Source of the DNA: Algoriphagus marincola HL-49
GTDB taxonomy: Bacteria > Bacteroidota > Bacteroidia > Cytophagales > Cyclobacteriaceae
Direction: 5' to 3'
DNA: 58,105 nucleotides
NCBI GenBank assembly: GCA_001314815.1
Contig: LJXT01000006.1
Span: 1-58,105 of the forward strand
Part shown: piece by piece, positions 9,972 through 15,364 of the stretch
Layout of the letters: every line of letters begins with the position of its first letter
Position numbering within the stretch: the first letter of the stretch is position 1
Translations under genes and position numbers: made by a program
The notes under the pieces: generated by a model
Database searches by the model: none
Seen by the model: only the letters and a program-made list of their open reading frames with translations
Told to the model about the DNA's origin: nothing

Positions 9972-10094
9972 ATGAGAGTTGTATGGACGGGGACGGCTTG
10001 GGAGGTTTACCTCTATTGGCGAACCATAGACAAGAAAAATTTCAAGCGAATCATTACTAGCGAATTTGAGAAAGGTCCTGTCTTCCTACGATAG
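9972..10094 (+). pseudogene. Truncated YoeB-type toxin
   Basis: The frame reads MRVVWTGTAWEVYLYWRTID and then KKNFKRI before stopping at TAG 10092-10094 after 40 residues. Intact YoeB proteins are about 85 residues and begin with the same W...YLYW...DK...KRI pattern. The catalytic C-terminal half is missing. Similarity stops around 10055-10070, exactly where the 3' end of the convergent parE gene begins, and the last codons are antisense to parE. It therefore looks cut by the arrival of the ParDE module or by a deletion. It lies 18 bases after the YefM-like gene, the normal antitoxin-toxin order. Confidence 0.75.
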
Positions 10095-10344
10095 CCATTA
10101 TTTCTACGATTTCTTGATTGATTTTAAAGTAAATACTTTCACTGCCACAGACACAACGCCTATATCCTGACTTAATGTGCTCCATTGATTCGAAAGAGAA
10201 GGGCCTTTGAGCGATCATTTCAAAACAATTAAATAAATTGTTGTAATATTTATCCGCTTGACTCATCCCAAATTGTTCCACCCCAAACAGGTAAATACGA
10301 ATCAAATCATTTTTTGCCTCCTGACTTAATTTATAATCAGCCAT
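10057..10344 (-). CDS. parE: ParE-family toxin
   Basis: This 95-residue protein begins MADYKLSQEAKNDLIRIYLFGVEQFG and contains HIKSGYRRCVCGSESIYFKI and IMAIVGRQDLSQIR, the ParE pattern. ParE toxins act on DNA gyrase; that target is known for the family and not shown here. The gene overlaps parD by 8 bases and has a normal length. Its 3' end overlaps the YoeB remnant on the other strand (10057-10094). Confidence 0.88.
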   Translation of the reverse strand: MADYKLSQEAKNDLIRIYLFGVEQFGMSQADKYYNNLFNCFEMIAQRPFSFESMEHIKSGYRRCVCGSESIYFKINQEIVEIMAIVGRQDLSQIR

Positions 10345-10576
10345 TGATCAGTTTCTGGGCTTCAGCCAGGATTTGTTCTTTATTTTGGGAGGTAAACCCA
10401 CCTTTTTCAGCCTTTTCTAATTTAGTTCTCAGCCAATTGATTTCAGCCTGCTGTTTTCTTGCTTGTCGAATCAGATCATTGATTAATTCACTTTTGCTGG
10501 AGTATTCTTGATTATCCACTTGGGATTTAAGCCACTCGTCATTGGGAGTGGTTAGAGAAATACTTTGTCTTGCCAT
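10337..10576 (-). CDS. parD: ParD-family antitoxin
   Basis: This 79-residue protein begins MARQSISLTTPNDEWLKSQV, a ribbon-helix-helix start, followed by SSKSELINDLIRQARKQQAEI and a charged C-terminal helix that would hold ParE. The ATG at 10574-10576 is chosen over an upstream in-frame start at 10624, which lacks family similarity and would cover the operator. It overlaps parE by 8 bases. ParD normally represses its own operon, and a palindrome lies just upstream. Confidence 0.87.
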   Translation of the reverse strand: MARQSISLTTPNDEWLKSQVDNQEYSSKSELINDLIRQARKQQAEINWLRTKLEKAEKGGFTSQNKEQILAEAQKLING

Positions 10577-10591
10577 AATTACCTTGTTTGA

Positions 10592-10603
10592 TGTAAAAAT
10601 ACA
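10592..10603. promoter_or_regulatory. Candidate ParD operator palindrome
   Basis: TGTAAAAATACA is a short inverted repeat (TGTA, AAAA, TACA) 16 bases upstream of the parD start, a typical place for a ribbon-helix-helix operator. No promoter could be assigned with confidence. Confidence 0.35.
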
Positions 10604-10764
10604 CCAAAAACGAATCACTTTCAAAATTGATTCGGAGTGAATCTTTTAAAAATCAAAGGATTTGATTACAAAGCCTTCATCATTCTCTTTTTGTCCCTGT
10701 AGGAGTTGAAATGAGCATCCCCCTATTTTTAGGAAATATCTCATAATTAATCCATCTTTTTAAT

Positions 10765-10995: not shown

Positions 10996-11026
10996 TTGTG
11001 TTGGTTCATTTCCCTTTGTAAATTCA
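10996..11026 (+). promoter_or_regulatory. Weak promoter candidate for the phhA-his leader
   Basis: TTG (10996-10998) and TAAATTCA (11019-11026) are 20 bases apart, the spacing of the Bacteroidota -33/-7 elements, but the -7 box is imperfect. Transcription would start near 11031, at the leader start codon, so the message would be almost leaderless. Confidence 0.3.
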
Positions 11027-11030
11027 CACC

Positions 11031-11084
11031 GTGAATCCAACCCCAAGAACCTATATTCATCATTCCCACTATCCGCTTCAATGA
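11031..11084 (+). CDS. Tyr/His-rich leader peptide of the phhA-hisHAFIE operon
   Basis: A short frame starting with GTG at 11031 reads VNPTPRTYIHHSHYPLQ (the first residue would be Met) and stops at TGA 11082-11084. Five of seven consecutive codons are Tyr or His (TAT, CAT, CAT, CAC, TAT at 11052-11072). It is followed by a strong terminator (11123-11154) and alternative pairings that include the terminator's left arm. This is the architecture of an amino-acid attenuator. The downstream operon makes Tyr (PhhA) and His (HisH, A, F, IE), which fits the codons. The frame is bounded upstream by TAA at 11019-11021, so GTG is the only usual start. No ribosome-binding site is expected in this phylum. 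Confidence 0.7.
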   Translation: MNPTPRTYIHHSHYPLQ

Positions 11085-11133
11085 AGGAATGGGATAAGTA
11101 TGGTTTCTTGCGAACGATATTAAAGCCTATTCC
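11070..11133 (+). promoter_or_regulatory. Alternative hairpins of the Tyr/His attenuator
   Basis: GGAATGGG (11086-11093) can pair with CCTATTCC (11126-11133), the left arm of the terminator, giving an antiterminator of 8 pairs with one G-U. The same strand is otherwise held in an upstream hairpin made of TATCC/GGATA (11070-11074 with 11092-11096) and CTTC/GAAG (11076-11079 with 11083-11086). A ribosome stalled on the His/Tyr codons would open that hairpin and free the antiterminator strand. No folding program was run. Confidence 0.65.
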
Positions 11134-11154
11134 AATTGCGGGATGGGCTTTTTC
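11123..11154 (+). terminator. Leader terminator before phhA
   Basis: AAGCCTATTCC (11123-11133) pairs along its full length with GGGATGGGCTT (11140-11150), with two G-U pairs and a six-base loop, followed by T residues. It lies 38 bases after the leader-peptide stop and 93 bases before phhA. Confidence 0.8.
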
Positions 11155-11247
11155 GTTTTAAGGAGAAGATCGCTCGGAGGGTTTTTAAAAAGAGCTGAAA
11201 CCCAAGGAAAGATTAAAAGTTAGATAAATATAAACCCAAATAGAAAT

Positions 11248-12030
11248 ATGACTGATAAACCGAAAGACTGGGTCTTTAGCGACCCGAGATTACAAGACCT
11301 CAGGCAGGAATATGAAGCCTATACGGCAGAAGATTTTAAGGTGTGGAAGATTCTCTATGAGCGACAGATGCCAAATCTGCCTAAAGCAGCTTCACAGGCC
11401 TATTTGGATGGGGTGGAGATTGTAAAATTCACTGCTGACCGCATTGCTAATTTCGAGGAACTCAATAAGATTTTGAAGGAAACTACAGGATGGGCTGTGC
11501 AAGTTGTGCCGGGCTTGATCGATGATGATTTGTTCTTCGGCTTGCTAAACAACCGAAGATTTCCTTCTTCCACCTGGCTTCGTAAAATGGAGCAGTTGGA
11601 TTATCTGGAGGAGCCGGATATGTTCCACGATGCCTTTGCACACATGCCTTTACTGACCAATCAGCCCTACGTGGACTTTTTGGAGAAGCTATCAGGCATT
11701 GCCCTAAAGCATATCGATGATCCATGGGCGATTCAGTTGCTCAGCCGAATTTATTGGTTTACGATTGAGTTTGGCTTGATTCGGGAAAACGGGGAATTGA
11801 AAATCTACGGAGCTGGAATTTTAAGCTCAGCTGGTGAAACAAAATTCTCCCTTTCTGATGAACCCGCACACTATCCGTATGAGGTGCGCCGAATTATGAA
11901 TCAGGAGTATTGGAAGAATAAATTCCAGGATAAATACTTCGTGATCGAAAGTTATGAGCAACTTTACAACTCCATTCCGGAAATAGAAGCGGTTTTGGAG
12001 GAAATGTTAGCTGAAAATAAGGTAAAATAA
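11248..12030 (+). CDS. phhA: Phenylalanine 4-monooxygenase
   Basis: This 260-residue pterin-dependent, iron-containing hydroxylase converts Phe to Tyr. The iron ligands are visible as His127 and His132 in DMFHDAFAHMP and Glu174 in FTIEFGL, with spacing close to the well-studied bacterial enzymes. There is no N-terminal regulatory ACT domain, as usual in bacteria. It is the first gene after the Tyr/His leader and precedes hisH by 136 bases, on the same strand. No pterin carbinolamine dehydratase gene is in the window. It could serve Tyr synthesis or Phe breakdown; the attenuator context favours Tyr synthesis. Confidence 0.93.
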   Translation: MTDKPKDWVFSDPRLQDLRQEYEAYTAEDFKVWKILYERQMPNLPKAASQAYLDGVEIVKFTADRIANFEELNKILKETTGWAVQVVPGLIDDDLFFGLLNNRRFPSSTWLRKMEQLDYLEEPDMFHDAFAHMPLLTNQPYVDFLEKLSGIALKHIDDPWAIQLLSRIYWFTIEFGLIRENGELKIYGAGILSSAGETKFSLSDEPAHYPYEVRRIMNQEYWKNKFQDKYFVIESYEQLYNSIPEIEAVLEEMLAENKVK

Positions 12031-12050: not shown

Positions 12051-12155
12051 GAAATACGATTGAAATACATACTGACAAGTCAGGATGAAATAAGGTAGAA
12101 ATATTTCTAATTATTTCGCCCCGGGGAGCCGGGGCTTATTTCTACAGTATTTCAG
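12051..12155. repeat. GAAATAC palindromic element, copy 1 (phhA-hisH gap)
   Basis: The element starts GAAATACGATTGAAATAC and ends with the inverted form TACAGTATTTCAG. Inside are two hairpins, CTGAC/GTCAG (12072-12083) and GCCCCGG/CCGGGGC (12118-12135), each next to GAAATAA or TTATTTC. The GC-rich hairpin could also weaken transcription after phhA, but no T run follows directly. Confidence 0.7.
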
Positions 12156-12166
12156 ATTAGAATAAA

Positions 12167-12763
12167 ATGAAAATAGCCGTAATCAAATACAACGCCGGCA
12201 ATGTGCAGTCGGTCTTGTATGCGCTGGAGCGATTGGGAGCTGAAGCTGAGCTAACCGATGATCCGGAGAAAATCTTAAATGCCGATAAGGTCATTTTTCC
12301 TGGTCAGGGAGAAGCGAGTACCGCAATGACTTATCTCAAAGCTAGAAAACTAGATCAGTTGATTCGGGAAATCAATCAACCCTTTTTAGGGGTTTGTTTG
12401 GGTTTGCAATTGCTTTGCGAGCATTCAGAGGAGAATAATACGGAATGCTTGGGGATCTTTCCGGTGAAGGTGAAGAAGTTTATTCCCGAAAATTCCCAGG
12501 AGTTCAAAGTTCCCCACATTGGCTGGAATGAGTTGGAGAATCTGGCCGATAACGTCCTTCTGAAGGATCTACCTGACCCAAAATTCCTTTATTATGTGCA
12601 TAGCTACTATGCGGAATTGAGTGAATCTACGATTGCCACCACGCATTACATTCATGACTTTACCGCGATTCTTCATCGGGATAATTATTGGGCGATTCAA
12701 GCCCACCCGGAGAAAAGCAGTACGGTTGGAGAGAAGTTGCTGAGTAATTTTCTTTCGATTTAA
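12167..12763 (+). CDS. hisH: Imidazole glycerol phosphate synthase, glutaminase subunit
   Basis: This 198-residue class I amidotransferase feeds ammonia to HisF. It starts MKIAVIKYNAGNVQSVLYAL, has the catalytic Cys77 in GVCLGLQLLCE, and the His/Glu pair in the C-terminal IQAHPEKSS. Length is normal. It is the first his gene here; hisG, hisD, hisC and hisB, which often precede it in Bacteroidota, are not in the window. hisA follows after 104 bases, and hisF, its partner, comes next. Confidence 0.96.
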   Translation: MKIAVIKYNAGNVQSVLYALERLGAEAELTDDPEKILNADKVIFPGQGEASTAMTYLKARKLDQLIREINQPFLGVCLGLQLLCEHSEENNTECLGIFPVKVKKFIPENSQEFKVPHIGWNELENLADNVLLKDLPDPKFLYYVHSYYAELSESTIATTHYIHDFTAILHRDNYWAIQAHPEKSSTVGEKLLSNFLSI

Positions 12764-12867: not shown

Positions 12868-13590
12868 ATGTTTATCATTCCCGCCATAGACCTTATAGAT
12901 GGTAAGTGCGTTCGTCTCAGTCAAGGCGATTACAGCAGCAAAAAAGAATATCACGACGACCCTGTGGAAATGGCTAAGCGTTTTGAAGACGCAGGCATTA
13001 CCCGACTGCATTTGGTCGATCTTGACGGTGCCAAAGCTAAAAAAATCGTAAATGATCAAGTGCTGTTGGATATCACTCAGAAAACCAGTTTGAAAGTAGA
13101 TTTTGGAGGAGGAGTTCAAAGTGAAGAAGAGATCGAAAAAGCATTTTATCTGGGTGCATCTCAGGTGACTGGAGGTTCTGTAGCGGTAAAAAAGCCTAAC
13201 ATGTTCAAATCTTGGTTGATTACCTATGGTCCGGAAAAACTTATCTTGGGAGCTGATGCCAAAGACCGTAAGATTGCGATTCACGGTTGGGAAGAGACTA
13301 CTGAGCAAGAGGTGATTGCTTTCATTAAGACCTACTTCCAACTGGGAGTTCGCTATGTGATCTGCACGGATGTGGCTAAAGACGGTTTGCTCCAAGGTCC
13401 ATCGGTGGAATTGTATCAAGAAATCATGGAAGAGATTCCTGATCTAAAGCTGATAGCCAGTGGAGGAGTTTCCTCAGTAAAGGATTTGGAAGAGTTGGAG
13501 AAAATTGGGGTCTATGGAGCCATTGTCGGAAAAGCCTATTATGAAGGGAAGGTGAGTTTGGAAGAATTAGCAGAATTCAATTCAAGATAG
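12868..13590 (+). CDS. hisA: ProFAR isomerase
   Basis: This 240-residue (beta/alpha)8 enzyme opens the ribose of ProFAR to PRFAR. The start MFIIPAIDLIDGKCVRLSQGD is typical, with the catalytic Asp in PAIDLIDG and a second acid in CTDVAKDGLLQGP; the phosphate sites are FGGGVQ and ASGGVSS. Length is normal. It sits between hisH and hisF, the common order. Confidence 0.97.
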   Translation: MFIIPAIDLIDGKCVRLSQGDYSSKKEYHDDPVEMAKRFEDAGITRLHLVDLDGAKAKKIVNDQVLLDITQKTSLKVDFGGGVQSEEEIEKAFYLGASQVTGGSVAVKKPNMFKSWLITYGPEKLILGADAKDRKIAIHGWEETTEQEVIAFIKTYFQLGVRYVICTDVAKDGLLQGPSVELYQEIMEEIPDLKLIASGGVSSVKDLEELEKIGVYGAIVGKAYYEGKVSLEELAEFNSR

Positions 13591-13725: not shown

Positions 13726-14481
13726 ATGTTGACAAAAAGAATCATTCCCTGCCTCGATATCAAAGACGGTCGCACCGTCAAAGGAGTCAATTTTGTCCAG
13801 CTCCGGGATGCCGGTGATCCGGTGGAGTTGGCGAAGATTTATTCGGATGAAGGTGCGGACGAACTCGTCTTTTTGGATATTACTGCTACCGTTGATAAGC
13901 GAAAAACTTTGGCTGAATTGGTGACTAAGGTTGCCATGGCGATCAATATTCCCTTTACGGTCGGGGGAGGAATTTCTACGGTAGAAGATGTGAAGGTTTT
14001 GCTAAATGCTGGTGCGGATAAAATCTCCATCAATTCAGCAGCGGTCAAAAATCCAGGTGTGATTGATGAAATGGCTCGGGAGTTCGGTTCGCAATGCATC
14101 GTGGTCGCCATCGATACCCGGGATGTGGATGGTACAGACTATGTGCATACGCATGGGGGGAGGAAACCAACTTTGCTCAAAACCCAGGCCTGGGCTCAGG
14201 AAGTCGCTGATCGGGGCGCAGGTGAGATTTTGCTCACTTCCATGGATCATGACGGTACCAAAGCCGGATTTGCGAATGAATTGACTGCGGAGATTTCGGC
14301 GGCACTTTCCATCCCGGTGATTGCCTCAGGCGGTGCGGGTACCATGCCTCATTTCAAAGATGTGTTTACCTTTGGAAAAGCAGACGCTGCTTTGGCAGCG
14401 AGTATTTTCCACTTTAAAGAAATTCCTATTCCTGAATTGAAAAGTTATTTGATTGGGGAGGGAATATCGATTAGAAAGTAA
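13726..14481 (+). CDS. hisF: Imidazole glycerol phosphate synthase, cyclase subunit
   Basis: This 251-residue barrel enzyme uses HisH-derived ammonia to make imidazole glycerol phosphate and AICAR. It starts [20 protein letters not shown], with the catalytic Asp in CLDIKDG and the second in [14 protein letters not shown] 13726 is chosen over an upstream in-frame start at 13711 because the family begins at MLTKR. The start lies two bases after the end of the repeat element. Confidence 0.97.
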
Positions 14482-14767: not shown

Positions 14768-15364
14768 ATGAACATCGACTTTAATAAAATGAACGGCCTT
14801 ATTCCCGCCATCGTACAAGACGCGGTTTCAGGCAAAGTCTTGATGCAGGGATATATGAATGAGGAAGCTTTGGAGAAAACAAAGGAATCCGGCATGGTGA
14901 CTTTTTTCTCCCGAAGTAAAAATAGGCTATGGACCAAAGGGGAAACTTCAGGTAATTTTATGGAGTTGGTTTCAATTGCGGGAGATTGTGACGGGGATTC
15001 AATTTTAGTAAAAGCAAATCCTCGTGGACCTGTCTGTCATACTGGCTCTGATACCTGCTGGGATGAAGAAAACTCGTCCAAGACAGGCTTTATCGACCAA
15101 CTGAGAGCCATCATCAAGGATAGAAAAAACAATCCATCGGACAAGTCTTATACTACTTCGCTGTTTGCCAAAGGTATCAACAAGGTCGCTCAGAAAGTAG
15201 GAGAGGAAGCGGTAGAAATCGTCATCGAAGCCAAGGATGACAATAAGGAATTGTTTTTGGGGGAGGCTGCAGATCTACTTTTTCATTATCTCGTCCTTTT
15301 GGAGGCCAAAGGCTATGAATTGGATGAGGTGATGGAGGTGTTGATTGATCGACATAAAAAGTAG
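14768..15364 (+). CDS. hisIE: Bifunctional phosphoribosyl-AMP cyclohydrolase / phosphoribosyl-ATP pyrophosphatase
   Basis: This 198-residue fusion performs steps two and three of His synthesis. The N-terminal HisI domain (about 1-105) has MQGYMNEEALEKT, SRSKNRLWTKGETSGN and metal-binding CDGDSI and CHTG motifs. The C-terminal HisE domain (about 110-198) has SYTTSLFAKGINKVAQKVGEEAVE and AADLLFHYLVLL. Length fits the fused form. It is the last his gene in the window; a 286-base repeat-filled gap separates it from hisF. Confidence 0.96.
   Translation: MNIDFNKMNGLIPAIVQDAVSGKVLMQGYMNEEALEKTKESGMVTFFSRSKNRLWTKGETSGNFMELVSIAGDCDGDSILVKANPRGPVCHTGSDTCWDEENSSKTGFIDQLRAIIKDRKNNPSDKSYTTSLFAKGINKVAQKVGEEAVEIVIEAKDDNKELFLGEAADLLFHYLVLLEAKGYELDEVMEVLIDRHKK

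Follow-up and report, generated by a model that had tools for sequence, protein, structure and literature searches.

A putative leader-peptide attenuator with tyrosine and histidine control codons ahead of the phhA-hisHAFIE operon of Algoriphagus marincola and its relatives

Introduction

Among the closest described systems is hisL of Salmonella and E. coli, where his genes are likewise preceded by a small His-codon frame and by helices that compete with each other. In hisL the control codons are for His only and the leader precedes hisG, whereas the leader discussed here contains both Tyr and His codons, precedes phhA-hisHAFIE, and belongs to an mRNA which probably starts at or beside the first codon. 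Response to several amino acids is known for thrL (Thr/Ile) and the ilvGMEDA leader (Ile/Val/Leu), whose amino acids share a pathway, unlike Tyr and His, which have none in common. A further difference from both these leaders is that the codon content of phhA-his leaders tracks the content of the operon. PMC1183508, in the part available to us, describes attenuation for several operons, trp and his among them, and refers by name to those of thr and ilvGMEDA. Leader-peptide attenuation itself is classical; what is new in our proposal is a sensor serving two pathways (Tyr and His).

T-boxes bind uncharged tRNA directly and have no leader frame. Those named for tyrosine (PMC1262725, in its accessible part) resemble the phhA leader in that Tyr genes are controlled at the RNA level. 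Attenuators ahead of some tyrA operons are mentioned in section 36 of PMC1173090, and that section says nothing on codons. For the phylum of the species studied here, clues for leader peptides are in print, in general terms only as far as the available excerpts of PMC9723704 and PMC7366714 go. In particular, 'strong clues' for leader-peptide attenuation at amino acid biosynthesis operons were reported for Flavobacterium psychrophilum, a member of this phylum (PMC9723704); no gene is named in that excerpt, and these leaders may already include one for phhA or for his genes. Neither tyrosine nor phenylalanine nor hydroxylase occurs as a word in the main text of PMC2965389, 'leader' is absent from PMC8305728, which deals with Bacteroidota his genes, no paper with 'leader peptide' and 'tyrosine codons' together was found in the open-licence literature, and no phenylalanine hydroxylase attenuator is named in open-licence titles or abstract openings. 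The statement in an earlier note on this DNA, that no Phe-hydroxylase operon has been described as controlled in this way, remains uncontradicted within that scope, subscription papers lying mostly outside it.

Results

The phhA-hisHAFIE operon and its surroundings

The window, i.e. the whole stretch of DNA analysed, comprises 58,105 nucleotides of contig LJXT01000006.1 of Algoriphagus marincola HL-49; features are on the plus strand unless stated otherwise. Domain matches and gene order bear out the assignment of the operon as phhA-hisHAFIE. The gene for a biopterin-dependent aromatic amino acid hydroxylase, phhA (11248..12030; Biopterin_H, PF00351, E 2.7e-46), is followed by hisH (12167..12763; GATase domain, named from gene order), hisA (12868..13590) and hisF (13729..14481), both matching PF00977 and told apart by gene order, and hisIE (14768..15364; PF01502 and PF01503). 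A single transcript running through hisIE is likely, in the absence of RNA data. Among the best 80 of 569 confirmed matches, the closest named relatives of this PhhA are those of A. formosus and A. faecimaris (97%). The hisG and hisD genes of the same genome lie on another contig, G000:C135 (hisC and hisB were outside the search). A TyrA-type dehydrogenase is also encoded in this genome, and thus phhA represents a second route to Tyr, not the sole one.

A DAHP synthase gene ends 1.4 kb upstream, with an oppositely oriented parDE between it and the leader, and the leader element is intact. The parDE toxin-antitoxin pair occupies positions 10057-10624 of the minus strand (PF05016 and PF03693). 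The gap between phhA and hisH contains a GC-rich hairpin, GCCCCGG/CCGGGGC (12118-12135), with a weak T tail, TTATTTCT, identical in L032 and L033; the his genes may therefore be partly insulated.

Leader frame and competing RNA helices

The leader frame VNPTPRTYIHHSHYPLQ with its stop (11031..11084) could be aligned with 36 other Algoriphagus-type leaders. It starts with GTG at 11031 and ends with TGA at 11082-11084, and the window sequence confirmed what had been claimed for it, namely 17 codons, with two Tyr and three His codons within seven (YIHHSHY). These control codons are located at 11052-11054 (Tyr), 11058-11063 and 11067-11069 (His), and 11070-11072 (Tyr). When the 320 nt upstream of phhA were dinucleotide-shuffled 3000 times, no small frame with five His/Tyr in seven codons arose.

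A predicted terminator hairpin (3:4), followed by TTCGTTTT, lies at 11122..11151. The terminator with a T tract described in the earlier note is thus present; its 11 pairs became 12 in our count, G-U included, and TTCGTTTTAA lies directly 3' of the hairpin. The predicted pairing of positions 11086-11093 with the left arm of this terminator also holds: GGAATGGG at 11086..11093, the antiterminator 5' arm (region 2), can form 8 bp with CCTATTCC at 11126..11133, the 3' arm (region 3), which is a part of the terminator 5' arm. Since this arm is common to both structures, antiterminator and terminator are mutually exclusive. In the minimum-free-energy fold, the terminator is accompanied by a protector (1:2) hairpin (11044..11110), and the GGAATGGG-CCTATTCC pairing is the alternative. 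The protector inner stem (5 bp, 11064-11068 with 11090-11094) is also part of the consensus that RNAalifold gave for 37 sequences, and in these Algoriphagus-type leaders the protector overlaps the control codons. The leader RNA (11024-11165) folds with -42.3 kcal/mol, compared with -29.4 in shuffles (z -3.3; 1 of 200 shuffles was equally good).

No match to any of the Rfam 15 families, T-box models included, was obtained for the whole window at gathering thresholds, and with a loose threshold nothing in six relatives exceeded the cut-off of any family. His_leader is one of these families; the leader would behave as a his attenuator yet falls outside all of them. The Tyr/His leader at L106:2850-2984 gave a sub-threshold match to Thr_leader (32.6 bits, cut-off 55, E 0.014), which is a likeness of attenuator shape and not membership.

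Putative promoter and start of transcription

A TTG at -33 is a part of the Bacteroidota promoter. If transcription starts at 11031, which is an inference, a TTG at 10996..10998 would occupy positions -35 to -33. The putative -7 box, TAAATTCA (11019..11026), matches the consensus TAnnTTTG in four of six letters and ends 4 nt 5' of the leader start codon; an alternative box, TCCCTTTG at 11011-11018, matches in five of six and would leave about 8 nt ahead of that codon. Of 86 loci with a leader (see below), 50 have their best TAnnTTTG match ending 4-6 nt 5' of the start codon chosen for the frame. Boxes so placed with at least five of six letters were found in 40 of these 86, and 7% of shuffles had such a match at 3-6 nt. 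A scan for the sigma-70 consensus yielded 10 sites, versus 13.4 in shuffles. According to the available part of PMC9723704, the -7 box of F. psychrophilum extends from -12 to -5, and leaderless mRNAs account for only 5.5%. This placement of the box would put the first transcribed base at, or adjoining, the leader start codon; we infer, from sequence alone, that the leader mRNA probably begins at or beside the first codon of the frame.

Occurrence of the leader among phhA loci

The comparison included 80 PhhA loci from named genomes (the best 80 of 569 confirmed), 66 from the family and 60 hand-chosen from the rest of the order; these 206 fetched loci, minus five duplicates, gave 201, and 19 more, 14 of them outside the order, brought the number to 220. 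Loci L002-L031, with the window's own among them, were left out of the comparison set. Within 450 nt 5' of phhA, a small frame with at least five His/Tyr in nine codons was found in 73 of 201 loci, compared with 2 on the reverse strand and 0.75, on average, in shuffles.

A locus was considered to have a leader when at least four His/Tyr in nine codons were followed, 10-60 nt past the stop, by a hairpin whose energy was below -10 kcal/mol and whose tail was rich in T. This filter was passed by 78/201 and 86/220 loci, among them 61 of 105 with phhA and hisH and 24 of 103 with phhA and without his genes. Leader control is, therefore, not universal, and most PhhA loci have no leader; none was detected by the filters used in five Belliella and three Cognataquiflexum loci. 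Three leaders with Tyr runs (L279, L280, L283) come from outside the order. Excluded from the 86 were L054, whose terminator scored weak, L080, with three His/Tyr in nine codons, and L137 and L141, which have clear Tyr/His frames and no terminator according to the script. The score of 5 for L074 and L075 came from a frame within the DAHP synthase match, and neither locus passed the terminator test. L155, cut by a contig end, was omitted from the set of 85 leaders used below.

Conservation and spacing of the helices

Counting the window, 37 Algoriphagus-type leaders were compared; 98.3% of cells were paired for the 8-bp antiterminator, against 27-58% for slid partners, and 95.8% for the terminator. 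Within Algoriphagus, co-variation was no higher than in shuffles for either helix. Hairpins devoid of conserved Tyr/His codons, which would have refuted the proposal, were sought in Algoriphagus and none were found: the 36 leaders with a terminator all keep at least two His and at least one Tyr. These leaders had been pre-selected for at least four His/Tyr in nine codons; L054 and L080, dropped by the filter, likewise keep at least two His and at least one Tyr.

Across the 86 loci the antiterminator arms vary, with 58 different arm pairs, and pairing is still kept. When bases from the last control codon onward were considered, the antiterminator duplex with the terminator left arm gave a mean z of -2.28, with p <=0.05 in 58/86 loci (right-arm control, mean z 0.05). 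A first, narrower test, using bases from just ahead of the stop, had given a mean z of -1.10 and p <=0.05 in 27/86. As the arm is frequently located within the frame, the test was redone from the last control codon, a design chosen with the first result known. In the 50 loci that are not of the Algoriphagus type, mean z was -0.33 in the first test and -2.32 in the second. More distant leaders encode unrelated peptides, yet their Tyr/His runs, terminators and antiterminators are alike in kind.

Measured from the first base of the last control codon, the start of the arm lies 9-20 nt downstream in 90% of the 86 loci (median 15), versus 27% in shuffles; in 82/86 the arm ends no further than 12 nt beyond the first stop-codon base. 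A ribosome covers about 12-15 nt ahead. With such spacing, which ribosome-mediated attenuation requires, a ribosome stalled on the last control codon would leave the arm accessible, and one that had reached the stop would hide it.

Codon content and downstream genes

Enrichment was scored for all 20 amino acids. At loci with phhA and hisH (n=105), His (z 15.4) and Tyr (z 12.8) stood out, the next reaching 2.6; when Algoriphagus-type leaders were removed (n=68), the values were 11.3 for Tyr, 5.3 for His and 2.1 for the next. With phhA and no his genes (n=103) it was Tyr alone (z 11.3, next 2.0), and ahead of hisG in the same family (n=30) it was His (z 19.6, next Ala 4.8), with no Tyr enrichment. 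These z values ignore kinship, as related loci were counted as independent.

Among the 85 leaders, at least one His in the nine-codon core was present in 59 with hisH and 5 without it, and no His in 2 and 19, respectively (Fisher 1.8e-12; agreement in 78/85). A cut of two His, set when the exceptions were already known, gave 57/1 and 4/23 (Fisher 1.1e-15). The exceptions were L254, a genuine one, with a Tyr and His leader and no his genes, L212 and L215, with Tyr-only leaders ahead of phhA-hisH, and L109, L143, L149 and L253, with one stray His and no hisH. Examples of cores are YYYYYYY ahead of phhA alone (L117, L146, L157), TYHHYYHYY (L106), AYHHHYYHL (L107) and AHHHYYYYY (L154) ahead of phhA-hisH, and VHHFHHSS in an example leader ahead of hisG. 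The suggestion that one leader may read the charging of two tRNAs is supported by this comparison, His codons going with hisH and Tyr codons with phhA; an effect on read-through is inferred.

A PhhA tree of 56 rows, in which Algoriphagus was thinned, requires six changes of the hisH label, at least two of them forced by well-supported branches. An independent-pairs sign test on this tree had only two supported pairs, too few to reach significance. With so few independent switches, the association between codons and genes rests on counts of related loci.

The hisG leader of the window's own genome, MNYSKAHSAYFYSHAFQVHVHHFHHSS, is His-rich, yet has three Tyr too. Leaders of hisG in the family often end in VHHxHHSS, followed by a shared block of the type ACATATCGCCC...GGCTG (L188, L191, L193, L195-L198, L201-L204, and L180:1662-1847 in the own genome). 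No terminator was seen 3' of these frames, by eye only, and Rfam gave nothing above the cut-off for the hisG-leader loci L180, L195, L202 and L208.

Discussion

We propose that the phhA-his leader is a ribosome-mediated transcription attenuator with a two-amino-acid (Tyr and His) sensor, a reading to which we assign a probability of roughly 85% without RNA or reporter data. The frame, its codons, the competing helices and their spacing, the conservation across species and the match between codons and genes are observed here. Transcription would start at, or immediately 5' of, the leader GTG or ATG. Under poor charging of either Tyr-tRNA or His-tRNA, the ribosome would stall on a Tyr or His codon (11052-11072) and cover the left side of the protector hairpin, leaving GGAATGGG free to pair with CCTATTCC; this pairing would block the terminator and allow phhA-hisHAFIE to be transcribed. 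With both tRNAs charged, the ribosome would reach the stop codon (11082-11084) and mask GGAATGGG, so that the terminator (11122-11151) could form. Translation of the frame, the transcription start, ribosome stalling and the starvation response, which would amount to an OR gate with two unrelated amino acids as inputs, are inferred. Thus, a single leader is probably responsive to a lack of either Tyr or His, unrelated as they are, as far as can be judged with no experiment at hand.

It is conceivable, though we consider it unlikely, that the attenuator senses Tyr only, with the His codons merely providing the left-arm bases of the protector and the his genes using another promoter. The few independent switches on the PhhA tree leave room for this, as do L212 and L215, which have hisH yet Tyr codons alone, and the hairpin in the window's phhA-hisH gap, strong hairpins being present in 24 of 61 such gaps. 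However, His recurs in unrelated leaders ahead of hisH (at least one in 59/61, at least two in 57/61) and is scarce without hisH (5/24 and 1/24, respectively). Much less credible is that the hairpin is nothing more than the end of an upstream trp/DAHP-synthase operon, and the small frame a product of chance. A DAHP synthase match does end 200-400 nt 5' of phhA in 21 of 38 Algoriphagus-type loci; in the window, however, that gene is 1.4 kb away, beyond the opposed parDE, and the element is intact, while 14 of the 38 loci have no trp or DAHP synthase gene upstream (the upstream sequence is short in some). The excess of His/Tyr frames over shuffles (73 versus 0.75) also speaks against chance.

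Equally hard to sustain is a leader that reads tRNA modification, namely queuosine supply, instead of charging. In many bacteria both tRNA-Tyr and tRNA-His carry queuosine, a modification shared by the Asn and Asp tRNAs. Both codon families are NAY, and NAT codons prevail in the frames of the 86 leaders (CAT 139/CAC 60, TAT 206/TAC 127), but neither Asn nor Asp ranked in the top six of any group, and the split between Tyr and His follows the genes downstream. We likewise see hardly any case for a working small protein in place of a sensor frame: PTPRT hardly varies across the aligned Algoriphagus leaders, yet the codons for PRT pair in the window's predicted protector stem, and outside Algoriphagus the peptides have little but Tyr/His in common.

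The presence of Tyr codons argues for a biosynthetic role of PhhA in these bacteria. PhhA in other bacteria is treated as an enzyme of phenylalanine breakdown in the accessible part of PMC1173090. In Echinicola vietnamensis, PAH was found to be important in defined media, and the authors of that study propose that it synthesises tyrosine; this mutant fitness, as given in the available part of PMC7311316, supports the view that PhhA makes tyrosine. The locus L078 of E. arenosa, a member of the family to which the window's species belongs, has a Tyr/His leader. At L146 and L157, a Tyr-run leader is followed by phhA, a class I/II aminotransferase and prephenate dehydrogenase, a gene set which, judged by its predicted functions, is apparently a tyrosine operon; at L218, a Tyr leader precedes phhA and pterin-4a-carbinolamine dehydratase. 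The possibility that PhhA replaces a missing TyrA had no significant support (Fisher p = 0.32). No PDH_N match was found in 5 of 87 good family genomes; all five have PhhA, four with a Tyr leader (L117, L123, L149, L151).

A more general model, towards which we incline without much assurance, is that of an OR-gate leader for two amino acids with unrelated biosyntheses. Its mRNA would start at the first codon, and its control codons would be recast (Tyr only, His only, Tyr and His) as phhA and his genes join or part; attenuators of PhhA with Tyr codons would then be a wider Bacteroidota device giving bacterial PhhA a biosynthetic role. The natural series of Tyr, His, and Tyr and His leaders would offer a direct view of attenuator evolution under operon rearrangement. 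It would also extend leader-peptide control to tyrosine and phenylalanine hydroxylase, and provide candidate Bacteroidota sensors for the charging of Tyr-tRNA and His-tRNA.

Several other sequence features of these loci were recorded. The phhA-hisH gap holds a common long hairpin, of the type ATAGACCTC...GAGGTCTAT, in the Echinicola loci L078, L092, L095 and L098, and a different long hairpin in the Litoribacter loci L055 and L061. Palindromes of the type GCTTCTCCAGAAGC lie between the terminator and phhA in at least four loci (L044, L052, L053, L057). In the window, ATAAACCCAAATAG is found at 11230-11243, immediately 5' of the phhA start; AACCCAA occurs near that start in 66 of 141 loci among L032-L179 and in 68 of 220 overall, with or without a leader.
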